Made by a program: the position numbers and the translations under genes. Positions 8,534 through 37,745 of a DNA stretch of 64,000 nt are shown piece after piece (within the stretch, counting starts at the first letter, position 1; every line of letters begins with the position of its first letter). Under the pieces are notes generated by a model. It was not told the origin of the DNA. It did no database searches and was given only the letters and a program-made list of their open reading frames with translations. The stretch covers positions 744,001 to 808,000 of the forward strand of contig NZ_CWKH01000001.1 of NCBI RefSeq assembly GCF_001245615.1, written 5' to 3'. This DNA comes from Mycolicibacterium neworleansense (GTDB taxonomy: Bacteria; Actinomycetota; Actinomycetes; Mycobacteriales; Mycobacteriaceae).

Positions 8534-9073
8534 TCAGCGGGGTGGCGTCGGGGCATTCGATGAACCCGCCGCCGATCCCATGACGAGCAGCAGATCGGCG
8601 GTGTGCCGGGTCAGCTGCCAGCCGTCGCCCTGCGGGGTGAATTCCATCGGGAAGCTGAAGTTGCGGGCCGACTCCTCGCCGCCAGCGGTGACCTTGATGG
8701 TCGCCACGACGTTGGTCGGCTCGTTCTGGGCCCAAGCCAGATCGGTGGCCTCGAAGGCCAGCGGGGTGAATCCGTTGTCGACCAGGGCGCGGCCGAACTT
8801 GTCCAGCGCGGCCGCGTCATCGGCGGTGCCCTGTTCGACCAGGCCCACCTTGTCCGCACCGGGAACGTTGACGTCGGCCAGGCGGTCCAGCACGCCGGTC
8901 AGCGCTTCGGGGGCGGGCAGCGGCGCGGCCGGTGGTGTCTCCGGCGCCGTGGTCAGCGCGCTCGTGGTCGGGTGCGCGGTCTTCGCCGGGTGATCCGCGC
9001 TGCTACACCCACAGAGCCCAAGTGCCGCCACGATCGTGGCGGCACCCAGGACTGCGATACGGCTGCGGTTCAA
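8534..9073 (-). CDS. lppK: LppK-like lipoprotein
   Basis: A 179-residue lipoprotein: a short basic N-terminus, a hydrophobic stretch and the lipobox LCGC with the lipidated Cys at residue 23, then a Thr/Pro/Ala-rich linker (about 25-55). The folded domain (LTGVLDRLADVNVPGADKVGLVEQGTADDAAALDKF) aligns by eye with the domain of the neighbouring MTB12-like protein, suggesting an old tandem duplication. The start is TTG, 8 bp after that gene. Expected on the outer face of the cytoplasmic membrane; function unknown. Confidence 0.87.
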   Translation of the reverse strand: MNRSRIAVLGAATIVAALGLCGCSSADHPAKTAHPTTSALTTAPETPPAAPLPAPEALTGVLDRLADVNVPGADKVGLVEQGTADDAAALDKFGRALVDNGFTPLAFEATDLAWAQNEPTNVVATIKVTAGGEESARNFSFPMEFTPQGDGWQLTRHTADLLLVMGSAAGSSNAPTPPR

Positions 9074-17984: not shown

Positions 17985-19271
17985 TTGCTGCTCGCAACGA
18001 CAGCGCCGTTGTCCGAATCTGACCTCCCCGACGTGTTCAGCTCGGTCGAGTCCGAGGTCCGCAGCTATTGCCGCGGCTGGCCCACCGTCATGAACCGCGC
18101 CGCGGGCTCCTGGGTGACCGACACCGCGGGACGCACCTACATCGACTTCTTCGCCGGCGCGGGCGCGCTGAACTACGGCCACAACAACGCCGCGCTGAAG
18201 GAGCCGTTGCTGGAATACCTTGTCTCCGACGGGATCGTGCACTCGCTGGACATGGCCACCGCGGCCAAGCAGCGTTTCCTGGAGAGCTTCGAGCGGCTCA
18301 TCCTGCGGCCGCGTGGTCTGGACTACAAGGTGCAGTTCCCCGGGCCGACCGGTGCCAACTCGGTCGAATCCGCGCTCAAGCTGGCCAGGAAAGTGACTGG
18401 ACGCGAGTCGGTTATCAGCTTTACCAACGCATTTCACGGCATGACACTGGGGGCGCTGTCGGTCACCGGCAACTCGATGAAGCGGGCCGGTGCGGGTATC
18501 CCGCTGGTGCACGCCACCCCGATGCCGTACGACAACTACTTCGGCGGGGTCACCGAGGACTTCCAGTGGTTCGAGCGCGTGCTCGACGATTCGGGCAGCG
18601 GGCTCAACCGCCCGGCCGCGGTGATCGTCGAAACCGTCCAGGGGGAGGGCGGTCTCAACGTCGCGCGCATCGAATGGCTGCGGGCGCTGGCCGAGTTGTG
18701 CCGCAAGCGCGACATCCTCCTGATCGTCGACGACGTCCAGATGGGGTGTGGCCGGACCGGGCCGTTCTTCAGCTTCGAGGCCGCCGGCATCGTGCCCGAT
18801 ATCGTCACGATATCCAAGTCGGTCAGTGGCTACGGCCTGCCGATGGCGCTCACTCTCTTCCGCCGCGACCTCGACATGTGGACGCCGGGGGAGCACAACG
18901 GCACGTTCCGTGGTCACAACCCAGCGTTCATCACCGCCACCGCGGCTATCGAGACCTATTGGGAGAACGGCCAATTCAGTGCCGAGACGGTCACCAAGGG
19001 GGAACTGCTCCGTGAGCGGCTGGAGGAGATCGCCGCGGCCCACGACGGCGTGAGTGCCCGTGGCCGCGGAATGGCGCAGGGCCTCAAGTTCGACGAGGCC
19101 GATCTGGCGGGACAGGTCTGCCGGGCCGCCTTCGACCGCGGTGCGCTGATGGAGACCAGCGGTCCGTCCGACGAGGTGGTCAAACTGCTGCCGCCGCTGA
19201 CCATTCTCTCCACTGAATTGTCCGAGGGCCTCGACATTCTCGCCGAGTCCGTTGCCGTCACCCTGGCCTGA
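17985..19271 (+). CDS. ectB: Diaminobutyrate-2-oxoglutarate transaminase EctB
   Basis: EctB makes L-2,4-diaminobutyrate from aspartate semialdehyde using glutamate. The 428-residue protein is a class III PLP aminotransferase: GPTGANSVESALKLARKVTG (phosphate site), AFHGMTLGALSVTGN, LLIVDDVQMGCGRTGPFFSFE and the PLP lysine in TISKSVSGYGLPMALTLF. The EctB-specific GEHNGTFRGHNPAF segment is present. The TTG start at 17985 is supported by GGAAGGA 7 nt upstream. Confidence 0.96.
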   Translation: MLLATTAPLSESDLPDVFSSVESEVRSYCRGWPTVMNRAAGSWVTDTAGRTYIDFFAGAGALNYGHNNAALKEPLLEYLVSDGIVHSLDMATAAKQRFLESFERLILRPRGLDYKVQFPGPTGANSVESALKLARKVTGRESVISFTNAFHGMTLGALSVTGNSMKRAGAGIPLVHATPMPYDNYFGGVTEDFQWFERVLDDSGSGLNRPAAVIVETVQGEGGLNVARIEWLRALAELCRKRDILLIVDDVQMGCGRTGPFFSFEAAGIVPDIVTISKSVSGYGLPMALTLFRRDLDMWTPGEHNGTFRGHNPAFITATAAIETYWENGQFSAETVTKGELLRERLEEIAAAHDGVSARGRGMAQGLKFDEADLAGQVCRAAFDRGALMETSGPSDEVVKLLPPLTILSTELSEGLDILAESVAVTLA

Positions 19272-19284
19272 GGGAGCTTGAAAC

Positions 19285-19677
19285 ATGATTGTCCGCACCA
19301 CAGCTGAGATCACCGGAACCGACCGCGACGTCGCCGACGGCACCTGGCGCTCCAAGCGCATCATCCTGGCCGGCGACGGGGTGGGCTTCTCGTTCCACGA
19401 GACCACCATCGAGGCCGGATCGGTCAACGAATTCCATTACCAGCACCACGTCGAGGCCGTCTGGGTGATCGAGGGCACCGGCACTCTGACGGATCTGGAG
19501 ACCGGGCAGCAGTACCCACTGGCCGACGGAACGATGTACCTGCTCAACGACAATGACCACCATCGGGTCACCTGCGACGAGCAGTTGCGCATGCTGTGTG
19601 TGTTCAACCCGCCCGTGACCGGCCGGGAAGTGCACGACGAGAACGGTGTCTACCCGGCGCCACAGTCGGTCGCATGA
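19285..19677 (+). CDS. ectC: L-ectoine synthase EctC
   Basis: EctC cyclises N-gamma-acetyl-diaminobutyrate to ectoine with loss of water. The 130-residue cupin has the family length, and the metal-site region EFHYQHHVEAVWVIEGTG and GTMYLLNDNDHHRV carries the expected Glu, Tyr and His ligands. GGGAGCTTG precedes the ATG. Its stop overlaps the ectD start as ATGA. Confidence 0.97.
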   Translation: MIVRTTAEITGTDRDVADGTWRSKRIILAGDGVGFSFHETTIEAGSVNEFHYQHHVEAVWVIEGTGTLTDLETGQQYPLADGTMYLLNDNDHHRVTCDEQLRMLCVFNPPVTGREVHDENGVYPAPQSVA

Positions 19678-20603
19678 GCGAAGTCGTCCAGCACGGAATC
19701 GGCGGCGGATCGCGCCCGGACTCGGCTGCGGTCGAGGACCGGTACCCGACACGGCTCGACCATGCGATCGAGCCGATACCCCGTCACGAGCCCGTGGTGT
19801 GGGGCACCGTGGCCGACGGGCCGCTGAGCCAGCACCATCTGGACGGCTTCTCGGAGTACGGCTATCTGGTCGCGCCCGAGACGGTGTCCGATGACTGGCT
19901 TCCGCTGCTTCGGCACGAAATCGACCGGCTGGCAGCGGATCTGGACGATGACGACCCGCGGCTGATCCGCGAGCCGGGCGGCACGATCCGGTCGATCTTC
20001 GAACCGCATCTGTTGAGCGACCTGGTGGCCCAGCTGGTCCGGCTGGACACGGTGTTGCCGGTCGCGCGGCAGTTGCTCGGCGGCGATGTCTACATCCACC
20101 AGGCGCGGATCAACCTCATGCCCGGGTTCACCGGGACTGGGTTCTACTGGCATTCGGACTTCGAGACGTGGCATGCCGAGGACGGCATGCCGGCCATCCG
20201 CGCCGTCTCGTGCTCGATCGCCCTGACCGAGAACTATCCCTACAACGGGTCGCTCATGGTCATCCCCGGGTCGCACCAGACGTTCTATCCGTGCGTCGGC
20301 GCCACACCCGAGGACAACCACGACACCTCACTGGTGGCGCAGAACGTCGGGGTGCCCGATCAGACGACGCTGACCAAGGCCGTCGACGCCCATGACATCC
20401 ACCAGTTCACCGGCCCGCCGGGGACCGCGCTGTGGTTCGACGCGAACCTGCTGCACGGTTCTGGGTCCAACATCACACCGCTGCCGCGGTCGAATGTCTT
20501 CCTGGTGTTCAACTCGGTCGACAACGCGCTGACCGACCCGTTCGCCGCGCCGCGGCCGCGACCCGAATACCTGGCGGCCCGGGGTGCACAGGCCGTCACC
20601 TAG
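19674..20603 (+). CDS. ectD: Ectoine hydroxylase EctD
   Basis: EctD converts ectoine to 5-hydroxyectoine using Fe(II), O2 and 2-oxoglutarate. The 309-residue protein carries the EctD signature FYWHSDFETWHAEDGMPAIR, with His and Asp of the iron triad in HSD; the distal His is in LLHGSGSN, and QARINLMPGFTGTGF resembles the co-substrate region. The ATG at 19674 overlaps ectC, so translation is coupled; the frame open to 19596 is not used. Its presence means the strain can likely make hydroxyectoine. Confidence 0.96.
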   Translation: MSEVVQHGIGGGSRPDSAAVEDRYPTRLDHAIEPIPRHEPVVWGTVADGPLSQHHLDGFSEYGYLVAPETVSDDWLPLLRHEIDRLAADLDDDDPRLIREPGGTIRSIFEPHLLSDLVAQLVRLDTVLPVARQLLGGDVYIHQARINLMPGFTGTGFYWHSDFETWHAEDGMPAIRAVSCSIALTENYPYNGSLMVIPGSHQTFYPCVGATPEDNHDTSLVAQNVGVPDQTTLTKAVDAHDIHQFTGPPGTALWFDANLLHGSGSNITPLPRSNVFLVFNSVDNALTDPFAAPRPRPEYLAARGAQAVT

Positions 20604-20606
20604 GCT
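20601..20606 (+). promoter_or_regulatory. -10 element for a leaderless dop transcript
   Basis: TAGGCT lies 6 nt before the dop ATG (20613), the spacing at which transcription would begin at the start codon. No ribosome binding site precedes that ATG. dop therefore probably has its own promoter inside the end of ectD. Confidence 0.5.
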
Positions 20607-20612
20607 GGCCAC

Positions 20613-22121
20613 ATGCAACGGATTATCGGAACAGAGGTCGAATACGGCATTTCCTCGCCCTCCGATCCGACCGCCAATCCGATCCTGACCTCGACTCAGG
20701 CGGTGCTGGCGTATGCGGCTGCCGCCGGCATCCAGCGTGGGAAGCGCACCCGGTGGGACTACGAGGTCGAGAGCCCGCTGCGCGACGCTCGCGGCTTCGA
20801 CCTGTCCCGGGCCTCCGGACCGGCCCCGATCGTGGATGCCGACGAGGTCGGCGCGGCCAACATGATCCTCACCAACGGTGCCCGGCTGTACGTGGACCAC
20901 GCTCATCCCGAGTACTCGGCCCCCGAGTGCACCGATCCGATGGACGCGGTGATCTGGGACAAGGCCGGCGAGCGCGTGATGGAGGCCGCCGCCCGCCACG
21001 TGGCCAGCGTGCCCGGGGCCGCCAAGCTGCAGCTCTACAAGAACAACGTGGACGGCAAGGGCGCCTCCTACGGGTCGCACGAGAACTACCTGATGAGTCG
21101 CCAGACCCCGTTCTCGGCGGTGATCGCCGGGTTCACACCGTTCCTGGTGTCCCGGCAGGTGGTGACCGGTTCCGGCCGGGTCGGCATCGGGCCCTCGGGG
21201 GACGATCCCGGCTTCCAGCTCTCCCAGCGGGCGGACTACATCGAGGTCGAGGTCGGCCTGGAGACCACGCTCAAGCGCGGCATCATCAACACCCGCGACG
21301 AGCCGCACGCCGACGCCGACAAGTACCGGCGCCTGCACGTCATCATCGGCGACGCCAACCTGGCCGAGACGTCGACCTACCTCAAGCTCGGAACCAGCTC
21401 CCTGGTGCTCGATCTGATCGAGGAGGGGCCGCAGTTCGGCCTGGATCTGTCCGATCTGGCATTGGCCCGGCCGGTGCACGCGGTCCACGTGATCAGCCGC
21501 GATCCCTCGCTGCGGGCCACGGTCGCGCTGGCCGACGGTCGTGAGATGACCGCCCTGGCGCTGCAGCGGGTGTATCTGGACCGGGTGGCCAAACTGGTCG
21601 ACATCCGGGACCACGACCCCCGGGCCGCCCACGTCGTCGAGACCTGGGCCCATGTCCTGGACCTGCTCGAGCGCGACCCCATGGAATGCGCCGAGATCCT
21701 CGACTGGCCGGCCAAGCTGCGGTTGCTGGAGGGTTTCCGCCAGCGTGAGAACCTCGGCTGGCAGGCGCCGCGGCTGCACCTCGTCGATCTGCAGTACTCC
21801 GACGTCCGGCTGGACAAGGGCCTGTACAACCGGCTGGTCGCCCGCGGGTCGATGAAGCGCCTGGTCACCGAACAGCAGGTGATCGACGCCGTCGACAACC
21901 CGCCGACCGACACCCGCGCCTATTTCCGTGGTGAATGCCTGCGCCGCTTCGGTTCGGACATCGCCGCGGCCAGCTGGGACTCGGTGATCTTCGACCTCGG
22001 CGGCGATTCGCTCGTCCGGATTCCGACGCTGGAGCCGCTGCGCGGCAGCAAGGCCCATGTCGGCGCCCTGCTGGACTCGGTGGACAGCGCCGCCGAACTC
22101 GTCGAACAACTCACGAACTGA
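20613..22121 (+). CDS. dop: Deamidase and depupylase of Pup, Dop
   Basis: Dop deamidates the C-terminal Gln of Pup to Glu and removes Pup from conjugates. The 502-residue protein is a carboxylate-amine ligase fold like PafA. The metal/ATP glutamates are in [10 protein letters not shown] (residues 3-12), the Dop-loop region in [31 protein letters not shown] carries the catalytic Asp near residue 94, and [22 protein letters not shown] is shared with PafA. Dop is distinguished by the inserted loop before NGARLY. It is followed by pup after 104 bp. Confidence 0.97.
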
Positions 22122-22140
22122 CCATTTCCGGCGGTGAGCT

Positions 22141-22157
22141 ACCCGGGCAATCCGGGT
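22141..22157 (+). promoter_or_regulatory. Small hairpin between dop and pup
   Basis: ACCCGG (22141-22146) and CCGGGT (22152-22157) pair around a 5-nt loop, with no T-run after it. The -10-like TACTGT at 22167-22172 could start a separate pup-prcBA transcript. Both are weak predictions in the 104-bp dop-pup gap. Confidence 0.3.
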
Positions 22158-22225
22158 GCCGACCGGTACTGTGGAAGGACCGGTTGGGCGGTTAGCCCGA
22201 CCGATGACAATTGCAGGAGGCAGCG

Positions 22226-22420
22226 ATGGCTCAAGAGCAGACCAAGCGTGGCGGTGGCGGCGGCGAGGATGACGACCTCCCGGGCGCATCTGCCGCCGGC
22301 CAGGAGCGTCGCGAGAAGCTGGCCGAGGAGACCGACGATCTGCTCGATGAGATCGACGACGTGCTGGAAGAAAACGCGGAAGACTTCGTGCGCGCATACG
22401 TCCAAAAGGGCGGCCAGTGA
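22226..22420 (+). CDS. pup: Prokaryotic ubiquitin-like protein Pup
   Basis: Pup is the intrinsically disordered modifier attached to substrate lysines. The 64-residue product has a Gly/Asp-rich N-terminus ([13 protein letters not shown]), the helix that binds the Mpa coiled coil ([29 protein letters not shown] region) and the ending YVQKGGQ; the terminal Gln must be deamidated by Dop before ligation. GCAGGAGGCAGCG precedes the ATG at 22226. prcB starts within its stop codon (GTGA). Confidence 0.97.
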
Positions 22421-23274
22421 CCTGGCGCGAGAACTCTTCTTTGCCCCAGCCCCTCTCCACCAACCCCTCTGTAGCCATGGATCTGTCGTCGTTCTCTGAA
22501 CTGCTGCGTCGACAGGCCCCCGAACTGCTCCCGGTCAACCGCGTCACCGACGGCACGATCAACCCGACCAACGCGGTGCCGCACGGGACGACCATCGTCG
22601 CGATCAAGTACCCGGGCGGCGTGCTGATCGCCGGTGACCGCCGCTCCACCCAGGGCAACATGATCGCCGGCCGCGACGTGCAGAAGGTGTACATCACCGA
22701 CGACTACACCGCGACCGGCATCGCGGGCACCGCGGCCATCGCCGTCGAGTTCGCCCGGCTGTACGCCGTGGAGCTGGAGCACTACGAGAAGCTCGAAGGC
22801 GTCGCCCTGACCTTCCGCGGAAAGGTCAACCGGCTGGCCATCATGGTGCGCGGCAACCTCGGTGCGGCATTGCAGGGTTTCGTGGCGCTCCCGCTGTTGG
22901 TCGGCTTCGACGTCGATGCCGCCGATGCCGAGAACGCCGGCCGGATAGTGTCGTTCGACGCCGCAGGTGGCTGGAACATCGAGGAAGAGGGCTACCAGTC
23001 GGTGGGGTCCGGCTCGATCTTCGCCAAATCTTCGATCAAGAAGCTCTATCCGAACGTGGTCGACGCGGAATCGGCGCTGCAGGTGGCCATCGAGTCGCTC
23101 TACGACGCCGCCGACGACGACTCCGCAACCGGAGGACCCGATCTGGTGCGCGGCATCTATCCGACCGCGGTGACCATCGGTGCCGAGGGCGCCGTGGAGA
23201 TCTCTGAGGAACGCATCGCTGAGCTGGCCCGCGAGGTCATCGCGCGCCGGACCCGGTTGGGCGGTGAGGGGTAA
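22417..23274 (+). CDS. prcB: 20S proteasome beta subunit PrcB
   Basis: PrcB forms the inner catalytic rings of the proteasome. The 285-residue precursor has a propeptide of 57 residues; cleavage at [21 protein letters not shown] exposes Thr58, the nucleophile. Asp and Lys of the active site are in [20 protein letters not shown]. The GTG at 22417 overlaps the pup stop codon, so pup and prcB are coupled. Confidence 0.97.
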
Positions 23275-24000
23275 ATGAGTTTCCCGTACTTCATCTCGCC
23301 TGAACAGGCGATGCGTGAGCGTTCCGAGCTGGCGCGCAAGGGCATCGCCCGCGGGCGCAGCGTGGTGGCGCTGGCGTATGACAGCGGTGTGCTGTTCGTG
23401 GCGGAGAATCCGTCGCGGTCGCTGCAGAAGGTCAGCGAGCTCTACGACCGGGTCGGTTTCGCCGCCGTCGGTCGCTTCAACGAGTTCGACAACCTGCGGC
23501 GCGGTGGCATCCAGTTCGCCGACACCCGTGGCTACGCCTACGACCGCCGCGACGTGACGGGCCGTCAGCTGGCCAACGTCTACGCCCAGACCCTCGGCAC
23601 GATCTTCACCGAGCAGGCCAAGCCGTACGAGGTGGAGCTGTGCGTGGCCGAAGTGGCGCACTACGGGGAGACGAAGGCGCCGGAGCTGTACCGCATCACC
23701 TATGACGGGTCGATCGCCGACGAGCCGCACTTTGTCGTGATGGGCGGCACCACCGAGCCGATCATCGCCGCGCTCAACGACTCGTACGCCGAGAACGCAG
23801 ATCTGGCCGCCGCGGTCAAGATCGCGGTGAAGGCACTGAGCGCGAGCGGCAACGGTTCCGAGCCGCGCACACTCGGGCCGGCGACCTTGGAGGTGGCAGT
23901 GCTCGACGCCACCCGACCGCGTCGCTGCTTCCGCCGGATCACCGGCACCGCGCTGGAAGCCCTTCTGCCCGAACCGGAGCCACCGGCCTCGTCCGAGTAG
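23275..24000 (+). CDS. prcA: 20S proteasome alpha subunit PrcA
   Basis: PrcA makes the outer rings that gate the chamber and bind the Mpa tail. The 241-residue protein starts [33 protein letters not shown], the gating N-terminus plus H0 helix, and shows [29 protein letters not shown]. The ATG abuts the prcB stop codon with no gap. The C-terminus ([12 protein letters not shown]) is Pro/Glu rich and variable. Confidence 0.97.
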
Positions 24001-25453: not shown

Positions 25454-25491
25454 CTCAACTTAGTAGCATAAGTTGAGTGTTCCCTCAACTT
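25454..25491. promoter_or_regulatory. Operator between SDR and TetR genes
   Basis: CTCAACTTA (25454-25462) and TAAGTTGAG (25469-25477) are perfect 9-bp inverted arms around a 6-nt spacer; a third copy CTCAACTT follows at 25484-25491. The repeats overlap the predicted -35 of the TetR promoter and the region just upstream of the SDR start. This is a strong candidate site for the adjacent TetR. Confidence 0.75.
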
Positions 25492-25494
25492 CGC

Positions 25495-25500
25495 TATGCT
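25495..25500 (+). promoter_or_regulatory. -10 element for a leaderless TetR transcript
   Basis: TATGCT lies 6 nt before the GTG at 25507, with TTGAGT (25473-25478) 16 nt upstream as -35. The transcript would begin at the start codon, which supports the GTG at 25507 over longer or shorter starts. Confidence 0.55.
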
Positions 25501-25506
25501 GGCCAG

Positions 25507-26106
25507 GTGTCGGCAATGAGGGCGGATGCGGTCCGGAATCGAGACCGCCTGGTGGCTGCCGCCGCCGAACTTTTCTGCGAGCACGGCGTCGACGTTCCAC
25601 TCGACGAGATTGCGCGTCGGGCCGGCGTGAGCATCGGGACGCTCTACAACCACTTCCCGAACCGCGGGGCACTCCTGGATGTGGTGCTGTCCGATCGGTT
25701 GGCGGTGATCGACCGCTTGGCCCAGCAGGCGCTCGGCGATGCCGACTCGTGGCGGGGGTTCACCGGATTTCTCAACAGCCTGTTCGCGATGCAGGCATCC
25801 GATCGCGGCATCAACGACGCGGTGGCGCGCAATCCGGTCGGTGCCGTCGATGTCGCGGGGGAATGTGGCCGCGCCGGGGGACTGCTGGAGGCTGTCGTGG
25901 GGCGGGCCAGGGATGCCGGAGTGTTACGCGCCGACTTCGGCGCCGATGACCTGGCGACGTTGATGTGGGCGATGTCGAAGGTGATCGCGATGGCCGACGG
26001 CGACGATGACGTGTGGCGGCGTCACCTGGGCTTCGTGCTGGACGGACTGAAGAGTCCGGACGGCGGCGCGAACCAGACCCGACGGTCAGGCCAGGGCGAA
26101 CCGTAG
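25507..26106 (+). CDS. TetR-family transcriptional regulator
   Basis: A 199-residue regulator with helix-turn-helix NRDRLVAAAAELFCEHGVDVPLDEIARRAGVSIGTLYNHFPNRGALLDVVL (about residues 10-60). Start chosen at GTG 25507 because a -10 element sits 6 nt upstream; the GTG at 25477 lies inside the operator and the ATG at 25516 is also possible. It is divergent from the SDR gene it probably represses. The 3' end overlaps the convergent baeRF-like gene by 21 bp. Confidence 0.88.
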   Translation: MSAMRADAVRNRDRLVAAAAELFCEHGVDVPLDEIARRAGVSIGTLYNHFPNRGALLDVVLSDRLAVIDRLAQQALGDADSWRGFTGFLNSLFAMQASDRGINDAVARNPVGAVDVAGECGRAGGLLEAVVGRARDAGVLRADFGADDLATLMWAMSKVIAMADGDDDVWRRHLGFVLDGLKSPDGGANQTRRSGQGEP

Positions 26107-27210
26107 TTTCGCGGCTGCTGTCTGGTTCCAGATGTCGGCGGTGATCTCATCGGGGCGCACGGCGTATGTGCTGCCGCCGCGGTCGAGGACCATCACCGCG
26201 ATGCGGGACAGCAGATCGTAGCCGGAGTCGTCGTAGTGCAGCGCTCCGGTGTCGGCCTCGATGCGGCCGAGAACGTCGACGGTGAAGTTGTACACCAGCG
26301 TGTCGACCGCCCCGGCTGCCGCCGCCCGCGCGATGTCGCCCAGGTCGGTGGCCACCAGTCCCTTGCTGACTTCGTCGCCCAATTCGTCGACCCACGCGCT
26401 GGCCTGCTCGGAGTTCAGGGCAGGCAGCGACTCGCGGATGGCGCCGTCGATCTGATCGGGCCGCAGTTGGTCGGCCGCACCGGGCACCGGCACGATCCGG
26501 CGCTTGTGATCGAGTCCGCGGTACATATCGAGAAGCGGGTTGGTCGCGAACAGATACAGCGGCCGTTCCGCGGCGGGGTCCAACCGGCCCAGTTCGGCGT
26601 CGACCGCGTCGGCGACCCGCTTGGCGTACTGATCCAGCAGCACTTTCTTGCCCTCGTCGCCTACCAGGCGGCGTACGTGGCCGCGGTCGCGCACAGTGGC
26701 GCGATTGGTCGCGTCGGCCACGTCGACGGCATACTCGCCGGTGAGCTCCAGTTCCTCGACTCGCGTGCTTGCGGTGGCCCGCCACAGGTTCCAGCCATCG
26801 GCCGAGAGGGTAAGGGCGTAGGCCTCCTGCGGTGTGGTGACCGCGCGGACCAACTGGCCGATGTCGAAGTACCTGCCCACCTGTAGCTGTTTCTCGAGCG
26901 CGTTGGGCAGTACGTAGACCTCGTGGAAGTCGTCGCTGATGAAGATGGCCACCGAACGGGAAAGGCTCAGCCACAGGTCTGATGCGGCGATCTCTGTCCA
27001 GCGGGACCGCAATTGTTGCTCGACGGCATGCCGCGCCCCGGACTCGCGGATCGTGCGCAGGGCCTGGTCCACCGCGCTCTTCGCGGTCAACAGACTCTTT
27101 TCCCGCTCGTCCGGCCCTGGTGCGGTTTCCGCGTACACGGTGATGGCGTGCTCGTGGGGCTCGCCAAGGCGGATCAGGTCGGAAACATCAGGCAACTCGT
27201 AGCGGGTCAT
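26086..27210 (-). CDS. baeRF (bacterial eRF1-like) family protein
   Basis: A 374-residue protein resembling the bacterial relatives of archaeo-eukaryotic release factor 1. The N-terminus MTRYELPDVSDLIRLGEPHEHAITVYAETAPGPDEREKS and middle ERPLYLFATNPLLDMYRGLDHKRRIVPVPGAADQLRPDQIDGAIRESLPAL show the pattern; AAAGAVDTLVYNFTVDVLGRI lies in the C-terminal L7Ae-like part. Roles in ribosome rescue or hibernation have been proposed for the family but are unproven for this type. GGAGGGGCG precedes the ATG. The assignment is by fold pattern. Confidence 0.7.
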   Translation of the reverse strand: MTRYELPDVSDLIRLGEPHEHAITVYAETAPGPDEREKSLLTAKSAVDQALRTIRESGARHAVEQQLRSRWTEIAASDLWLSLSRSVAIFISDDFHEVYVLPNALEKQLQVGRYFDIGQLVRAVTTPQEAYALTLSADGWNLWRATASTRVEELELTGEYAVDVADATNRATVRDRGHVRRLVGDEGKKVLLDQYAKRVADAVDAELGRLDPAAERPLYLFATNPLLDMYRGLDHKRRIVPVPGAADQLRPDQIDGAIRESLPALNSEQASAWVDELGDEVSKGLVATDLGDIARAAAAGAVDTLVYNFTVDVLGRIEADTGALHYDDSGYDLLSRIAVMVLDRGGSTYAVRPDEITADIWNQTAAAKLRFALA

Positions 27211-27320
27211 CGCCCCTCCTTCGTGCGGACTGTTTTCCAACCATATGCCTGTGATGGCCGCTGACCAGGGCAAAAAGACGCAGAAAATGGCATGGTGAAC
27301 GAATCGGGTTGACCGACACC

Positions 27321-27530
27321 TCAATTCCGGTCGGCGCCGGCCGGCCAGGGTTCGTCGGGCGCCGCGACGTCGAGGGCCGAGCCCGGCACGAACGAATCGA
27401 CCAGGGTGATCCTGCGAAGAGTGCCGGCCGGGTCGAACCCGACGATGAATCCGCCGGTTGTGGTCACCAAACCCATTGCCGCACTTGCTATGCGGTCGGT
27501 CGGCAGCAGAGGTACCGGCGGTCGTCCCAT
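27321..27530 (-). CDS. Small hypothetical protein, 69 residues
   Basis: A short protein (MGRPPVPLLPTDRIASAAMG...PWPAGADRN), no membrane segment or known domain. GGAAAGG at good distance before the ATG supports translation. It points away from aguB and shares the region holding the large aguB operator, so it may be regulated with it. Function unknown. Confidence 0.55.
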   Translation of the reverse strand: MGRPPVPLLPTDRIASAAMGLVTTTGGFIVGFDPAGTLRRITLVDSFVPGSALDVAAPDEPWPAGADRN

Positions 27531-27577
27531 TGCACCTTTCCGCTACCCCTTTACAACGAGTGTTGACCAGGTCACAA

Positions 27578-27600
27578 TAAAACGAATCAGATTCGTTTTA
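27578..27600. promoter_or_regulatory. 23-bp palindromic operator before aguB
   Basis: TAAAACGAATC (27578-27588) and GATTCGTTTTA (27590-27600) are perfect 11-bp inverted arms around a single central A. The site ends just before GGAGACG, the ribosome binding site of aguB (start 27612). A -35-like TTGACC lies at 27563-27568, so a bound repressor would cover the -10/+1 region. The cognate regulator is not obvious nearby. Confidence 0.8.
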
Positions 27601-27611
27601 GGAGACGACCG

Positions 27612-28604
27612 ATGATCACCCTCACCGCCGCCGCACCCGAGTCGCTGTCGCGCAGTACCGAGTCGACGCGCCCGCCGCTGCGGGTCGGGCTGGTGCAGCA
27701 CCGGTGGCGACCCGATGCGACCGAACTGCTCAGGGTGCTGCGCGACGGTATCGACCGCGCGGCCGGTGCCGGTGCGGCGCTGGTCTGCCTTCCAGAGATC
27801 ACCCTCCTGCGCTATCCCGCGGACACCCCGGCCGGACCCAACCCGGGCGGGTCCGCCGAGGATCTCACCGGTGGCCCCACCTATGCCCTCGCGGCCGAGG
27901 CGGCCCGGGCCAATGACGTCTTCGTGCACGCCTCGCTGTACGAAAAGGCGCCGGCAGCTGATGGATTGGGTTTCAACACAGCAATCCTGGTGGCCCCGTC
28001 GGGGGAGTTGGCCGGCTACACCCGCAAGCTGCACATCCCGATTTCGGCGGGTTACTACGAAGACACCTACTTCCGTCCGGGTCCGGGACCGACCGCCGAG
28101 GGCAACCCGTACCCCGTGTACCACCCGGACGGGCTGGGAGCCCGCGTCGGATTGCCGACCTGCTGGGACGAGTGGTTCCCCGAGGTGGCGCGCAGCTACT
28201 CACTCGGCGGGGCCGAGATCGTGGTCTACCCGACGGCGATCGGTTCGGAACCGGTATTCCCGGCTTTCGACACCCAACCACTGTGGCAGCAGGTCATCGT
28301 CGCCAACGGCATCAACAGCGGACTGTTCATGGTGGTGCCCAACCGAATCGGAGACGAGGGCAAGGTCAGTTTCTACGGCTCGTCGTTCATCTCCGATCCA
28401 TTCGGCCGGGTGCTGGTGCAGGCGCCTCGTGACGAAGAAGCCGTGCTGGTCGCCGACCTGGATCTGGACCAGCGTCGGGACTGGCTCGAGCTCTTCCCGT
28501 TCCTGCTGACCCGTCGGCCGGACACCTACGCCGCGCTCACCGCGCCGGTCGATGAAGCGCATCCCTACGGCGTCGGCCACGAAGCCACGGCAGTGGTGAA
28601 ATGA
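27612..28604 (+). CDS. aguB: N-carbamoylputrescine amidase AguB
   Basis: Hydrolyses N-carbamoylputrescine to putrescine, CO2 and ammonia. The 330-residue nitrilase-fold protein has the Glu-Lys-Cys triad: Glu62 (LPEIT), Lys139 (YTRKLHIP) and Cys184 (PTCWDEWFPE); the CWDEWFPE block is typical of plant- and Pseudomonas-type AguB. An N-terminal extension of about 20 residues precedes the domain. The aguA start overlaps its stop as ATGA. The large palindrome upstream suggests substrate-induced control. Confidence 0.93.
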   Translation: MITLTAAAPESLSRSTESTRPPLRVGLVQHRWRPDATELLRVLRDGIDRAAGAGAALVCLPEITLLRYPADTPAGPNPGGSAEDLTGGPTYALAAEAARANDVFVHASLYEKAPAADGLGFNTAILVAPSGELAGYTRKLHIPISAGYYEDTYFRPGPGPTAEGNPYPVYHPDGLGARVGLPTCWDEWFPEVARSYSLGGAEIVVYPTAIGSEPVFPAFDTQPLWQQVIVANGINSGLFMVVPNRIGDEGKVSFYGSSFISDPFGRVLVQAPRDEEAVLVADLDLDQRRDWLELFPFLLTRRPDTYAALTAPVDEAHPYGVGHEATAVVK

Positions 28605-29632
28605 CCACGTACCGCATGCCCGCCGAAGGGGCGCCGCAGGACCGCGTGTGGATGGCCTTCCCATCCGCCGGCTATTCGCTGGGTGACACCGAAGCCGAAC
28701 ACCACGAAGCGCGCAGCACCTGGGCGGCGGTGGCGCACGCGGTGCTGGAGTTCGAGCCGGTGACGATGGTGGTCGACTCCGCCGAAATGCCCGCGGCCCG
28801 GCGCTATCTGTCCGCCGCCGTCGACATCGTCGAAGCACCGTTGAACGACGCCTGGATGCGGGACATCGGCCCCACCTTCGTGCACGCCGAGGACGGCTCG
28901 GTGGCCGCGGTGGACTGGGTGTTCAACGGCTGGGGTGCCCAGGATTGGGCGGTCTGGGATCGCGACTCGAAGATCGGTGCGGCCGTCGCTGATTGGTCGG
29001 ATGTGCCGGTCGTCCACTCGGGCCTGGTGAACGAGGGCGGCGGCATTCAGGTCGACGGGCTGGGCACCGTTCTGGTCACCGAGACCGTGCAGCTGGATCC
29101 CAGCCGTAACCCCGGCGCCACCAAGGCCGACGTAGAAGCCGAGTTGGCCCGCACCATCGGTGCCGATCACACGATCTGGCTGCCGCGCGGCCTGACCCGT
29201 GACTCGCAACGGTTCGGCACCCGCGGGCACGTCGACATCGTGGCGGCGATACCGTCGCCCGGCCGGCTGCTGCTGCATTCGCAGCCCGCCGACGCTCATC
29301 CGGATCACTTGGTGTGCAAAGAAATCCGGGCATCGCTGGAAAAGACCCACGATGTCACCGGACGGCCCTGGGAGGTCGTGGAGCTACCCGCGCCCGATCA
29401 GTTGACCGACGCCGACGGCTTCGTCGACTACAGCTACATCAATCACCTGGTCGTCAACGGCGGCGTGATCGCCTGTGCTTTCGGCGATCCGAAGGATGCG
29501 GACGCGGCGGCGATCCTGGCCGAACAGTATCCAGGCCGCCGTGTCCTGAGAGTCGATGCCCGCCCGCTGTTCGAGCGTGGCGGCGGCATCCACTGCATCA
29601 CCCAGCAGCAGCCCGCGGCCCGCCGGCGGTGA
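28601..29632 (+). CDS. aguA: Agmatine deiminase AguA
   Basis: Converts agmatine to N-carbamoylputrescine and ammonia. The 343-residue pentein-fold protein shows NDAWMRDIGPTFV, DWVFNGWGAQDWAVWDRDSKIG, the HVDIVAAI His region and the catalytic Cys332 in GGGIHCITQQQP. It overlaps aguB by 4 bp. Its stop codon (29630-29632) lies in a tandem repeat shared with the end of the convergent gdh gene. Confidence 0.94.
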   Translation: MTTYRMPAEGAPQDRVWMAFPSAGYSLGDTEAEHHEARSTWAAVAHAVLEFEPVTMVVDSAEMPAARRYLSAAVDIVEAPLNDAWMRDIGPTFVHAEDGSVAAVDWVFNGWGAQDWAVWDRDSKIGAAVADWSDVPVVHSGLVNEGGGIQVDGLGTVLVTETVQLDPSRNPGATKADVEAELARTIGADHTIWLPRGLTRDSQRFGTRGHVDIVAAIPSPGRLLLHSQPADAHPDHLVCKEIRASLEKTHDVTGRPWEVVELPAPDQLTDADGFVDYSYINHLVVNGGVIACAFGDPKDADAAAILAEQYPGRRVLRVDARPLFERGGGIHCITQQQPAARRR

Positions 29633-29686
29633 TCAGATTGCCGGCCCGCCGGCGGTGATCAGATTGCCGGCCCGCCGGCGGTGATC
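29617..29686. repeat. 26-bp tandem repeat across the aguA/gdh convergent ends
   Basis: A 26-bp unit beginning GGCCCGCCGGCGGTGATCAG occurs at 29617-29642 and 29643-29668 and partly (18 bp) at 29669-29686. It includes the last aguA codons and stop, and on the other strand the last gdh codons and stop. The unit contains the self-complementary core CCGCCGGCGG, so transcripts from either side could form hairpins. Recent slippage or unequal exchange is likely. Confidence 0.9.
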
Positions 29687-32253
29687 ATCCGGCCGATCGC
29701 CGCGCTCACCTGGGCACGGTTTCCGGTCCCGTTGCGCAGCACCCAGGATGTCAGGTGCTCGACGAGCTCGCGAACCTGTAGCAACGCCTGGATGCGCTGA
29801 CTCTCATCGCTGTTGCCTTCCAGCTCTGCCGCCCACAACGCATCCAGATCGAGAATCTCGCGCACCGTGGCATAGGCCAGGGCCACCTCGGCGGTGCTCA
29901 CGGCCAGCCGCTCCTGCATCCGGTAGATGGTGCCGGGGCCGACGCGGTTGATCAGCTCGCCGGCGACCGAGGTCGCGACGATCTCACGGCGCAACGGATG
30001 ACCGCCGATCTCGGCGCGGGCATGCTCGGCGACAGCGCCGGGGAAGTAGTCAACGAGGCGGTGCGCGAACGCTTCCCGGTCCGGAACGTCGGAGGCAAGC
30101 AACTCCTGTGCCACCAGATTCTTGGATTGTGCCAGCAGGACCGCGATCTCGGGACGGGTGAGTCCGAGTCCCATGGCACGACGGCGCGCCAGCTCCGGCC
30201 CGGCCGGCAACCCCTCCACCTGAGGGTCGACACCCGCCTTGTCACGCAGGTTACCGATCAGCCGGATGTGGCGGTCCAGGAGCGAATCGGCCTCGGCGGC
30301 AGCCATGCTGATCGCCAGGATCGCCTCGGCGTTGTCGGCCAGCACCCGAGCGGCCACATCGTCGGTGGCATCGGCGAGCAGGGCATTGCGTTGTGCGGTA
30401 CCGATGTTGCCGGCATCCAGGGCGATCTTGATGTTGACCTCGAGGTCTGAGGTCGCGACACCGGCCGCGTTGTCGATGAAATCGGCGTTGATCCGGCCAC
30501 CGTTGAGCGCGAACCCGATACGTGCCTGTTGGGTCAGCCCGAGGTTGCCGCCTTCGCCGATCACCTTGCAGCGCAACTGCGATGCCGTCACCCGCACCCG
30601 GTCGTTGGCCTTGTCCCGGGCATCGGAGTCGGCTTCGGTGTCGGCCCGGACGTAGGTGCCGATACCGCCGTTCCACAGCAGGTCGACGGGCGCGCGCAGC
30701 ACCGCGGCGACCAATTCGTCCGGGGTGCACTCAGCTGCCTCAATGCCCAGCGCGGCCTGGGCCTGCGATGACAGCGGTATCGACTTGGCGGTGCGGGGCC
30801 ACACCCCGCCACCGGCCGAGATCAGCGTCGGATCGTAATCCTGCCAGCTCGATGTGGGCAGATCGAACAGGCGGGCGCGCTCCTCGAAGGACGCCTGAGG
30901 GTTCGGGTCGGGATCGACGAAGATGTGCCGATGGTCGAATGCGGCGACCAGTTTGATGTTGTCGGACAGCAGCATTCCGTTACCGAACACATCACCGGAC
31001 ATGTCACCGATGCCGGCCACCGTGAACGGCTCGGCCTCGATGTCATGGCCGGCCTCGGCGAAATGGCGCTGCACCGAGAGCCACGCGCCGCGGGCGGTGA
31101 TGCCCATGGCCTTGTGGTCGTAACCGGCCGAGCCGCCGGAGGCAAAGGCATCCCCGAGCCAGAAGCCGTATTCGGCGGCAATGGAATTGGCCAGGTCGGA
31201 GAATCTCGCGGTGCCCTTGTCGGCGGCCACCACCAGATAGGCGTCGGCACCGTCAGGGCACACCGTCCGCTGCGGATGCCGGATGGTGCCGTCGACGATG
31301 TTGTCGGTGATGTCGAGCATTCCACGGATGAACGTGCGGTAACCGTCGGCCGGCGCGATGTCCGCATTGCGCAGCACGAACGCGCCTTTGGCGCCGGTCG
31401 GCACGATGGGCGCGTTCTTCACCGCCTGTGTCTTCATCAGGCCGAGCACCTCGGTGCGGAAGTCCTCGGGACGATTCGACCAGCGCAGTCCCCCTCGGGC
31501 GATGGCCCCGCTGCGCAGGTGGATGCCCTCGACAGTGTCGGAGCAGACGTAGATCTCGCGGTGCGGAACCACCGGGCCGGTCCCGGCCAGCCGGGCCGAG
31601 TCGAGCTTGAAAGACAGGTAGTCCTTGGGTTGGCCGTCCGGTCCGATCTGGAACCAGTTGGTACGCAAGGTCGCCCGGACGAAGCTGTGCAATGCGTGCC
31701 GAATGCGCTCGTCATCGAGCGAGGCTGCGGCGTCCACCAGGGCCGCCACGTCGCGATCGGCTTGGTCGGCGTCGACGCGGTCGGCGCCGTCGGGGTTGAA
31801 GCGGGCATCGAAGAGCGTCAGCAGCGCGTTGACGAAATCCGGTGCGGCGACCAGCGAATCGACGATGTAGTCGGCCGAGAATCCCAATCCGGTCTGCCAG
31901 ATGAATCGCCCGGCCGCGCGGATCAGAACTGCCCGGCGCCAGTCGATGCCGGCTGACGGGATCAGCGCGGCATAGCGGTCCACCTGCCAGTGCCCGGCGG
32001 TCGCGGCCTGGTATGCGCGGCCGATGAGATCGAGGGTGGCGGCCGGCAGGGTCAGGCGGCCGAATTCGTAGCAGTGGCCCGCGTCGGCGACCCGATAGGA
32101 GGCGACACGCAAGCCGAAGTGTTCGAACGTGGCGCAGACCTCGGCGAGCAGTGGCGGGCTTCCGGGCCACTGCACCTCGGCGCGTGTGCCGGCTTCTTCG
32201 ACGGCAAAAGACACTCGGGCAGAAGGGGTTTCCACAGCATGAGTCTCGGCCAT
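29659..32253 (-). CDS. gdh: NAD-specific glutamate dehydrogenase, short form
   Basis: Oxidative deamination of glutamate to 2-oxoglutarate. The catalytic domain has GGLRWSNRPEDFRTEVLGLMKTQAVKNAPIVPTGAKGAFVLR and the NAD-fold region FTVAGIGDMSGDVFGNGMLLSDNIKLVAAFDH, followed by the helical C-terminal domain of large NAD-GDHs. At about 864 residues it lacks most of the N-terminal ACT-containing half of the 180-kDa enzyme (1,624 residues in M. tuberculosis). The ATG at 32253 (MAETHAV) is chosen; in-frame ATGs at 32271 and 32277 are possible. Next to agu genes and a permease, it probably feeds catabolic nitrogen and carbon use. Confidence 0.88.
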   Translation of the reverse strand: MAETHAVETPSARVSFAVEEAGTRAEVQWPGSPPLLAEVCATFEHFGLRVASYRVADAGHCYEFGRLTLPAATLDLIGRAYQAATAGHWQVDRYAALIPSAGIDWRRAVLIRAAGRFIWQTGLGFSADYIVDSLVAAPDFVNALLTLFDARFNPDGADRVDADQADRDVAALVDAAASLDDERIRHALHSFVRATLRTNWFQIGPDGQPKDYLSFKLDSARLAGTGPVVPHREIYVCSDTVEGIHLRSGAIARGGLRWSNRPEDFRTEVLGLMKTQAVKNAPIVPTGAKGAFVLRNADIAPADGYRTFIRGMLDITDNIVDGTIRHPQRTVCPDGADAYLVVAADKGTARFSDLANSIAAEYGFWLGDAFASGGSAGYDHKAMGITARGAWLSVQRHFAEAGHDIEAEPFTVAGIGDMSGDVFGNGMLLSDNIKLVAAFDHRHIFVDPDPNPQASFEERARLFDLPTSSWQDYDPTLISAGGGVWPRTAKSIPLSSQAQAALGIEAAECTPDELVAAVLRAPVDLLWNGGIGTYVRADTEADSDARDKANDRVRVTASQLRCKVIGEGGNLGLTQQARIGFALNGGRINADFIDNAAGVATSDLEVNIKIALDAGNIGTAQRNALLADATDDVAARVLADNAEAILAISMAAAEADSLLDRHIRLIGNLRDKAGVDPQVEGLPAGPELARRRAMGLGLTRPEIAVLLAQSKNLVAQELLASDVPDREAFAHRLVDYFPGAVAEHARAEIGGHPLRREIVATSVAGELINRVGPGTIYRMQERLAVSTAEVALAYATVREILDLDALWAAELEGNSDESQRIQALLQVRELVEHLTSWVLRNGTGNRAQVSAAIGRMITAGGPAI

Positions 32254-32374
32254 GACCGGTCGAACAACCATCGACATTTTGGTGATCCGGGCGCGAGGAC
32301 AAGCGCCATTCTGTCGAAGGATCTGAATACCGTCCGTGCCACGGTATTCCGAGTTCGCGCTCGGGAAATGCAAA

Positions 32375-34948: not shown

Positions 34949-36475
34949 GTGGCGGTTCCGGTGCGGTGGGTGATCGAGCAGTCGGACCTGCATCTGCGTC
35001 TGTTGGCCGGCTCGTCCGGCGCCGGCCGTGAGGTGAGCCTGGTGCTGACCACCGAGCTGGCCAACCCGGCCGAATGGCTCTCCGGCGGCGAGCTGGTGCT
35101 GACCACCGGGATCAGCTTGCCGGCCAGTGATCGCGGCCGGCGTCGCTATCTACAACTGCTGGCCGAAAGTGGTGTCGCCGCAGTGGGATTCGGTACCGGT
35201 CTGACGTTCGATGCGGTTCCCGGCGAGTTGGTGGCGGCTGCCGAGGAACTCGGGTTGGCGCTGATCGAGGTGCCGCTTCGGACTCCGTTCGCGGCGGTGG
35301 TGCAGCGGGTCGGTGCACGCCTGGCCGAGCTGGAGTACGACGCTGTGCTGCGCGCTTCCCGGGCGCAGCCGCGGATCACCCGGGCGGTGGTGAGCGACGG
35401 CCCGCGTGGCGTCGCGGCCGAACTGGGCCGCGCGCTGAAGGCTGCCGTGGTGGTGCTGGATCCGAGCGGGACGGTGATCGCATCGCATCCGACCAACCTC
35501 GGCGTCACGACGGTGAACCTGGTGCGCGACTCGATCGAGCCGGGTGCCGCGTCGGGCGTGCGCGTGTTGTCCGATGGCACCACGGTGGCCCAGCAGGACA
35601 TCCGGGTCGGGGGCCGCTCGCACGGCGCGCTCGCGGTGGTCGGCCCGGTCGCGCTGAGTCCGGTCGACCAGGTGCTGTTGGGACATGCCACCTCTTTGCT
35701 GGCCTTGGACTTCGAGAAACCGGCCCGGTTGCAGGAGGTCCAGCGGGTGCTCAACCAACAGGCGTTGGGACTGCTGCTGACCGGTGAGCTCGACCTCGAA
35801 CCGGTGTATGCACAGCTGGCGCCGGTCGCTGATGCCCAGGGCCGGATTCGGGTACTGGTCGTCGAGTCCGACGCCGAGGCGAAGTCAGCGAGTCACCGGC
35901 AGCGGATGATCGCGGCGGTGGTCGGTGAGCTGGAGGCGGCCGGACATCCGGTGTTCGTGCACGGTGCCGATCGCCGGCTGACGGTGCTGCTGCCCGGCAC
36001 CGAGACGGTTGAGACCGCCGCCGGTCTGCTGGTCGGGCTGGACCCGGCGGCGCGCAAATCGAGCCGCAGTGGGCTCAGCGGAATTCAGCCGCTGCGGCGG
36101 TTGATGCAGGCCGTCGACGATGCCCGGCTGGCCGCATCGGTGGCCGAACGGGGCTGTCACCCATTGGAATTCGCGGCGCTGGCGGGCAGTGCATTGCTGT
36201 CCTCCGGGCCGAGCCGTGAGGTGCTGGTCGCGCTCGGGGCCGCAGTGCTGACGCCGGTGGCCGACCACGACGCGCAGCACGGATCCGGGCTGATGACGGC
36301 GCTGCGGGCTTTCCTGGAGGCCAACGGCCAGTGGGAGGCCGCCGCGGCGGCCATCGGTGTGCACCGGCACACGATGCGCAAGCGGATCGAAACCGCGGAG
36401 GCGCTGTTGGGCTGTGATCTCGGGGTGGCCCGAGTGCGGGCCGAACTGCTGCTGGCGATCTTGGCGCGCGGGTAA
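34949..36475 (+). CDS. PucR-family transcriptional regulator
   Basis: A 508-residue regulator: an N-terminal PucR-like domain (residues 20-120, with TTELANPAEWLSGGELVLTTGISLP), a central GGDEF-like region and a C-terminal helix-turn-helix (LRAFLEANGQWEAAAAAIGVHRHTMRKRIETAEALLG). PucR proteins often control purine, polyamine or amino-acid use. It is divergent from usp-permease, whose operon it probably controls. The GTG at 34949 is used; the frame open from 34430 is antisense to usp. Confidence 0.88.
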   Translation: MAVPVRWVIEQSDLHLRLLAGSSGAGREVSLVLTTELANPAEWLSGGELVLTTGISLPASDRGRRRYLQLLAESGVAAVGFGTGLTFDAVPGELVAAAEELGLALIEVPLRTPFAAVVQRVGARLAELEYDAVLRASRAQPRITRAVVSDGPRGVAAELGRALKAAVVVLDPSGTVIASHPTNLGVTTVNLVRDSIEPGAASGVRVLSDGTTVAQQDIRVGGRSHGALAVVGPVALSPVDQVLLGHATSLLALDFEKPARLQEVQRVLNQQALGLLLTGELDLEPVYAQLAPVADAQGRIRVLVVESDAEAKSASHRQRMIAAVVGELEAAGHPVFVHGADRRLTVLLPGTETVETAAGLLVGLDPAARKSSRSGLSGIQPLRRLMQAVDDARLAASVAERGCHPLEFAALAGSALLSSGPSREVLVALGAAVLTPVADHDAQHGSGLMTALRAFLEANGQWEAAAAAIGVHRHTMRKRIETAEALLGCDLGVARVRAELLLAILARG

Positions 36476-36971: not shown

Positions 36972-37022
36972 CTATTTTTAGCCTAAGCTCGGAAAGAAGT
37001 AGTCGTCAATGGGAGGTTGGCC

Positions 37023-37745
37023 ATGGCCCGTCGGGTCAAACCGGAGGAGTACGCCGCCCGGCGGCGCGAGATCCTCGTGGCCGCCCTGCAATTACTGCAC
37101 GACAAGGGCTACGCCGCGATGACCATCGAGGATCTGTTGGCCGCCGTGCAGATCTCCAAGGGCGCGCTGTATCACTATTTCCGGTCCAAGCAGGAGTTGC
37201 TCGAGGGCGTCGTGGAGCACCTGGGCGAGAGCCCCACCGTCGAACTGCAGCGCATCGTCGATGCTCCCGACCGCACCGCGCTGGACAAACTTCACGCCTA
37301 CTTTGCGGCGTCGCACACCTGGAAAACGGAGAATCCGATCGCGGTGGCCACCCTGGCCCGGCTGTGGCACGACGAGAACAACGCGCTGCTCCGCCAGAAG
37401 ATGACCCAGGGCTCGCTGCGCACCACCGCGCCACTGCTGGAAGCGATCATCCGCCAGGGCTGCGCCGAAGGCGTGTTCGACACCGGTTTTCCGCACGAGG
37501 CCGCCGGAATCATCACCGCGATGGGCATGCACCTGGCCGACGCGTTCATCGAGGCCCTGCAGGCCGACGGCGCCGACGGCGTCGACATCTCAGGCCCACA
37601 TGCCCGCCGGGCGGTGGCGGCGTATCAACAGGCGATCGAACGCATCCTCGGGTTGGCCGACGGCTCGCTGGCATCCGTTGCCGCGACAACACCCATTTCA
37701 GATTTTGCCGCACCGTCAGCGCGAGCTTGCCCACCGTTACCGTGA
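37023..37745 (+). CDS. TetR-family transcriptional regulator
   Basis: A 240-residue regulator: [54 protein letters not shown] is the TetR DNA-binding region (about residues 15-65). GGGAGG precedes the ATG at 37023. The C-terminal tail ([20 protein letters not shown]) runs up to 23 bp before pafA and covers its promoter. The nearest likely target is the divergent membrane-protein gene. Confidence 0.9.

Follow-up and report, generated by a model that had tools for sequence, protein, structure and literature searches.

The agmatine gene pair and its promoter

The window, i.e., the whole 64-kb stretch of Mycolicibacterium neworleansense DNA analysed here, contains a gene of the N-carbamoylputrescine amidase family (aguB-like), which at E≤1e-60 has no second copy in the genome, overlapped by 4 bases by a gene of the agmatine deiminase family (aguA-like); the two probably form one operon (Table 1). 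The surrounding genes include an NAD-glutamate dehydrogenase gene (~900 residues), which may be truncated or a short variant, as GDH_C was matched only over 1–162 of 339. A PucR-type regulator, in which PucR and HTH_30 domains were matched, adjoins this dehydrogenase, a permease and a Usp protein, and a baeRF/ribosome hibernation factor-like protein adjoins the TetR remnant described below. Elsewhere in the window, what we take to be ectoine-type genes (aminotransferase, ectoine synthase-like, dioxygenase-like) lie beside genes that are presumably the dop/pup/prcBA proteasome genes.

Table 1. Features of the window around the aguB promoter, with other genes mentioned in the text
Feature	Position	Strand	Remarks
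Presumed ectoine-type genes	17985..24000		
Intact TetR gene	25477..26106		
baeRF/ribosome hibernation factor-like gene	26086..27324	-	
TetR-A, remnant of the former cis TetR repressor	27321..27530	-	69 codons; in-frame deletions of 288 and 126 bp
Predicted -35 box, aguB promoter (probable)	27550..27555	+	TTTACA
Predicted -10 box, aguB promoter (probable)	27573..27578	+	CACAAT
Operator A, putative	27578..27600	none	perfect 23-bp palindrome; conserved core AACGAAT-NNN-ATTCGTT at 27581–27597
Ribosome-binding site of aguB	27600..27605	+	AGGAGA; first base is the last base of operator A
aguB-like gene, N-carbamoylputrescine amidase family	27612..28604	+	TIGR03381 179 bits, below cut-off 410
aguA-like gene, agmatine deiminase family	28601..29632	+	TIGR03380 270 bits, below cut-off 382
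NAD-glutamate dehydrogenase gene	29659..32373	-	
PucR-type regulator gene	34961..36475	+	
Intact TetR gene	37017..37745		

The palindrome before aguB, TAAAACGAATCAGATTCGTTTTA, had been called near-perfect in the preliminary description; it is in fact perfect, consisting of two 11-base arms around one central base (TAAAACGAATC-A-GATTCGTTTTA), and it occupies exactly 27578–27600. It is thus a two-fold symmetric site at a promoter, within the ~15–25 bp of a TetR-type operator. When the 81-nt intergenic stretch was shuffled, perfect arms of at least 11 bases (gap 0–4) arose in 2 of 20,000 shuffles, which agrees with the earlier judgement that such symmetry is unlikely by chance. The 6.29-Mb genome holds no second TAAAACGAATCAGATTCGTTTTA site at ≤3 mismatches. 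Perfect arms of at least 10 bases (gaps 0–4) occur in one other place only in the window, a perfect 24-bp palindrome at 9022–9045 (GTGCCGCCACGATCGTGGCGGCAC).

A sigma-70-like promoter, TTTACA-17-CACAAT (27550–27578; one found vs a shuffle mean of 0.0), touches the palindrome, so that the site indeed lies on the aguB promoter, directly before the ribosome-binding site, as had been described. Judged from the predicted -10 box, aguB transcription is expected to start at ~27585, within operator A. Read on the opposite strand, the -35 box gives TGTAAA, which would have served the lost divergent TetR promoter as its -10 box.

Conservation of the operator motif

A scan for aguB relatives yielded at least 80 named loci, and counts given for listed loci concern these 80. 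The motif AACGAATNNNATTCGTT (≤1 mismatch, ≤150 bp from the matched aguB start) is present in 53 of them, in mycobacteria, rhodococci and Antrihabitans, where it sits just downstream of the promoter -10 box. The site is thus conserved upstream of aguB in relatives, the point on which the preliminary description had made its operator depend. Among the 27 loci lacking the motif are aguB relatives that stand further off and have other genes beside them. In Paenarthrobacter, the aguB genes of two loci (L065 and L066) have a different palindrome, CGATTCCGCCGGAATCG, ~67 bp upstream, which in L066 adjoins a different TetR; this may represent another kind of operator for the agmatine pathway.

We aligned 65 sites, namely those of the 53 listed loci, the window and 11 loci from a further genome search, some of them possibly from the same species. 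The conserved unit is a 7-3-7 core, AACGAAT-NNN-ATTCGTT, plus an A/T flank, in which 13 arm positions are near-invariant. Because the core is variable at its three central positions and the final base of the left arm is altered in 20 of the 65 sites, the exact 11+1+11 symmetry in the window is partly luck. All 65 sites carry a -10-like hexamer (CACAAT, CAGAAT, CACACT, GATACT, CATACT or AATACT) at most ~10 nt upstream of the core, and the site therefore covers the expected transcription start.

A divergent TetR family accompanies the motif

Clustering of neighbouring genes, for which the gene calls came from a simple script and not from curated annotation, pointed to one gene that recurs divergently beside aguB in motif-positive loci and encodes a TetR of ~200 residues. 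By tblastn, 51 of the 80 listed loci have both the motif and the adjacent divergent TetR, 2 have the motif only (M. setense, L012, and M. senegalense, L015), none has the TetR only and 27 have neither. This gives a Fisher value of 2.6e-19, which is not corrected for shared ancestry and overstates independence, as the loci are related to one another. The dedicated regulator that had been predicted from the symmetry of the site thus has a counterpart in one TetR family. Its member in M. septicum, encoded in cis, matches TetR_C_1 with 53.4 bits and lacks TetR_N at E≤0.001, and no NCBIfam equivalog was matched at its cut-off by the TetR repressors.

The preliminary description had proposed scanning mycobacterial genomes for the motif and a co-occurring regulator, and such a scan led to the same TetR family. 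Within 148 same-genus genomes (drawn from a larger group and partly overlapping the species of the listed loci; up to 21 TetR and 14 aguB candidates scored per genome, a part of all), the motif lies within ~85 bp of the start of 26/26 TetR genes (25 genomes) and within ~35 bp of the start of 22/22 aguB genes, both paired by coordinates; a reversed-pattern control gave matches in 2 of the 148 genomes. Anywhere in the genome, the motif was found in 51 of the 148, i.e., in all 25 with a TetR match and in 26 of the 123 without; among these 26, only G162 has it at aguB.

A survey of 396 same-genus genomes, again with part of the candidates scored per genome (7 for TetR, 5 for aguB), showed the divergent TetR adjoining aguB in 70 of 89 aguB loci. 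Sixteen of the 89 have no adjacent TetR: M. neworleansense, G146 and G317, which carry a related repressor, TetR-B, elsewhere, and 13 for which no TetR match was obtained. Of the remaining three of the 89, G310 and G186 have a partial aguB match with a TetR close by, and in G390 a TetR is 3 kb away from aguB. In nine of the 396 genomes, the TetR was matched but aguB was not; in the three of these that were examined, the motif lies between the TetR gene and a divergent amidohydrolase-permease pair.

The adjacent repressor is reduced to a remnant

No intact TetR gene adjoins aguBA in M. neworleansense, as it would in an AguR-like system, and to this extent the earlier statement that no TetR is adjacent holds; it fails in that a TetR remnant, TetR-A, does adjoin. 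This is the 69-residue protein that had been offered as a candidate regulator. Its frame aligns to parts of the divergent TetR with the middle missing: compared with the genes of M. sp. DL99 and M. septicum, it is short of 288 bp mid-gene and 126 bp near the end, and the helix-turn-helix falls inside the lost middle. A Pfam search of the 69-residue frame returned no domain. Decay by substitution was considered and set aside as weak evidence: compared with 39 adjacent TetRs (one cluster of the 51), the remnant departs at 1 of 23 residues in columns conserved to at least 95%, a leucine (invariant in 39/39) having become proline, vs 0 or 1 such departures when intact relatives were left out in turn. 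The case for a dead gene therefore rests on the deletions, and the 69-residue protein is what is left of the former TetR and most likely no regulator.

The frame is nevertheless open, and helix 1 is retained in it together with some of the ligand/dimer core. It could in principle encode a dominant-negative mini-repressor, which would be driven by a promoter face-to-face with that of aguB, pair with TetR-B and weaken it, and so tune the merged regulon proposed below; we hold this to be highly improbable.

The adjacent TetR was lost in other species as well, cleanly in M. senegalense and through a shared rearrangement in M. setense and G146. In M. setense, a rearrangement has also brought a homologue of the window's TetR gene at 37017 to a place immediately upstream of aguB.

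A sister repressor at a second locus

An intact sister of TetR-A, TetR-B, is encoded on another contig of M. neworleansense (G000:C2:593492-594094). It belongs to the TetR family by its domains, with 50.7 bits for TetR_C_1 (cut-off 21) and 21.9 bits for TetR_N, just under the cut-off of 24. TetR-B diverges from a gene pair for an Amidohydro_3 enzyme and an amino-acid permease, and between them lies operator B, AATAAACGAATTCCATTCGCTTTAG, which has one core mismatch, in an arm. Operators A and B are the only two motif sites in the M. neworleansense genome at ≤1 mismatch. The operator B stretch agrees in M. neworleansense and five related genomes, except for one flanking base in M. neworleansense. 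Between M. septicum TetR-A and M. neworleansense TetR-B, 53 of the first 65 residues are alike, including an identical PSSLYNHV stretch, which makes a common operator for TetR-A and TetR-B plausible.

In phylogenetic trees, TetR-B groups with repressors of the M. peregrinum group (100/98), TetRs that are still beside aguB, while the aguB of locus A forms its own group (100/100). At the same place as locus B, the M. peregrinum group has the TetR, the operator, aguB (with aguA called or not), the amidohydrolase and the permease in a row, and in M. neworleansense, as in the five related genomes, the stretch at operator B resembles the aguB promoter of the M. peregrinum group. A fossil of the aguB 5' end follows operator B; it is clear in L117 and L118 and brief in M. 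neworleansense and L116, and none was found downstream of operator B in L119 and L120. The M. neworleansense fossil is 78.5% identical over 135 nt to the aguB promoter and start of L022, reaching ~49 nt past the start codon (E 0.013 at the protein level). In all 14 genomes checked, aguB was present as a single gene (E≤1e-60). The two loci have thus decayed reciprocally, as locus A lost its repressor and kept the enzymes, and locus B lost aguB and kept the repressor; the branching in the trees agrees with this. A comparison of TetR-B with plasmids gave 7 records, all below 60% identity, and hence no close plasmid copy.

Fate of the operator after loss of the adjacent repressor

Loci at which aguB has no adjacent intact TetR differ according to whether a repressor persists elsewhere. 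With TetR-B elsewhere in the genome (M. neworleansense, M. setense, M. senegalense and G146), the operator has 0, 0, 0 and 0 mismatches; these four genomes represent only 2–3 loss events, as M. setense and G146 share one rearrangement and M. neworleansense and M. senegalense may go back to one loss or to two. Where no intact TetR was found, the mismatches are 1 (G162), 4 (L036), 6 (L034), 7 (L037) and 7 (G193), counted in the best-matching stretch near the start, some with small insertions or deletions. As for the absence of the TetR, L037 showed a match in none of all 41 candidates scored from its genome, and for G185 (the genome of L036, 90% complete), G193 and G162 the statement holds among the part of the candidates scored per genome. 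M. agri (L034) has a TetR-like frame, counted as non-intact, whose first ~55 residues, including the helix-turn-helix, are unmatched and hold a stop. Four of these five loci have kept the -10 hexamer as CACAAT or CACACT; L034 has CAAACT. Because the operator is intact in 4/4 cases with TetR-B and altered or gone in 5/5 for which no intact TetR was found, it tends, as far as these sequences tell, to last where some copy of the repressor lasts.

We therefore weighed whether operator A is still in use. It might be an orphan site that no protein binds now, left behind beside a constitutive aguBA and not yet decayed. In favour of this, the cis repressor is a remnant, and G162 retains a one-mismatch site without a TetR match at E≤1e-45, 20 C-terminal codons of its lost TetR remaining. 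As the losses are possibly recent as well, operator retention could partly be lag. Against this stand the 4/4 vs 5/5 split, the persistence of the -10 hexamer in four of the five loci with a changed operator and no intact TetR found, and the identical operators of M. setense and G146, even though their shared upstream DNA is only 89.9% identical (1,367 bp). On balance, we regard an abandoned site as unlikely.

A different regulator might instead bind the palindrome: the PucR-type protein, which the preliminary description had named as a candidate, or one of the two intact TetRs of the window, the three being the nearest intact regulator genes there. The PucR-type protein resembles PmfR by NCBIfam, albeit with 94 bits vs a cut-off of 800. 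Within the fetched flanks, however, it occurs in 11 of the 80 listed loci, of which 7 carry the motif and 4 lack it, and the TetRs at 25477 and 37017 occur in 3 and 4 of the 80, all motif-positive, vs 53 loci with the motif. None of the three tracks the motif in these flanks, so we rejected them as partners and consider binding by any of them very improbable. This warns against taking the intact regulator gene closest to a site for the one that acts there.

Still less credible is an RNA hairpin in the leader that hides the aguB ribosome-binding site. The palindrome can be folded as RNA (-7.8 kcal/mol, z -1.9) and lies directly 5' of that site, but 21 of the 65 aligned sites are changed in a single arm and not one has both arms changed, for which reason we rejected the hairpin. 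Furthermore, the predicted start falls inside the left arm, most of which would therefore be absent from the RNA, and no such hairpin forms in RNA from 27585 on; the site is also kept beside the TetR genes of the three examined genomes without an aguB match. Conservation merely as core promoter, to which the abutting conserved -10 hexamer would lend itself, deserves almost no credence, since four of the five loci without an intact TetR keep the hexamer with the operator altered or gone, the ground on which we rejected pure promoter constraint, and the downstream arm is not known to have a core-promoter role.

Repression in trans as the proposed mechanism

We thus favour the view that the palindrome is the operator of aguBA for a TetR repressor and that, TetR-A being gone, aguBA is repressed in trans by TetR-B, which would sit over the start site; from the sequence comparisons this appears likely. 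The sequences themselves show the site with its conservation and retention, its coupling to one TetR family, the TetR-A remnant, TetR-B and the short aguB fossil, whereas binding, repression, the inducer and action in trans are what we infer. In the ancestral layout, the repressor gene would have stood divergently beside aguB, with one site common to both. A repressor dimer would occupy the DNA between the -10 box and about +15, keeping RNA polymerase off the aguBA promoter, and a small molecule of the pathway, by analogy agmatine or N-carbamoylputrescine, would release it. From operator B, TetR-B would govern the amidohydrolase-permease pair and probably its own gene too, and the inducer would free both operators. 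As TetR-B would most likely hold both operators, two regulons would have merged under one repressor. With its one changed arm base, operator B could be the site that TetR-B prefers.

Control of aguBA by agmatine is plausible by analogy. The motif facing the amidohydrolase-permease pair in the three examined genomes without aguB suggests that the ligand may be common to both branches and need not be agmatine; as nine of the 396 surveyed genomes carry the TetR without an aguB match, the repressor may respond chiefly to a ligand of the amidohydrolase-permease pathway.

Comparison with known systems

Titles and abstract openings in the literature yielded no report of a regulator of agmatine genes, or of its binding site, in mycobacteria or rhodococci, in line with the earlier remark that the mycobacterial agu regulator is undescribed. 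A candidate regulator and binding site can now be named for the agmatine-deiminase operons of both groups. The two loci also offer a natural experiment in regulon rewiring, in which two repressor-operon copies lost opposite halves and both losses are still traceable.

The agmatine deiminase operon of Enterococcus faecalis uses a different second enzyme. Its named regulator, also called AguR, is described in excerpts of PMC3796520 as an activator, unlike the repressor proposed here. Classical TetR belongs to the same family (TetR_C_1), and comparison with solved TetR chains gave E-values as low as 5e-11. The classical TetR/TetO system likewise has a divergent repressor gene and a shared palindromic operator. 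It differs in its target, and the NCBIfam TetR score here is 50–57 bits, far below the cut-off of 265. By sequence, the closest solved relative of the cis TetR is Rha04620 (PDB 2g7g, E 1.5e-36), which is listed merely as a putative regulator, with no target or ligand given.

By analogy, the closest known system to the mycobacterial aguBA operator is that of Pseudomonas AguR. According to excerpts of PMC4287709, AguR of P. aeruginosa is a TetR-family repressor of aguBA, its disruption makes aguBA constitutive and agmatine releases it. The likeness, drawn from description, thus comprises a TetR-family repressor and an operon of the same two enzymes. AguR is said in the same excerpts to bind between -35 and -10, whereas the palindrome here starts where the predicted -10 box ends (27578), and the repressor gene is usually divergent here and, in M. 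neworleansense, unlinked.
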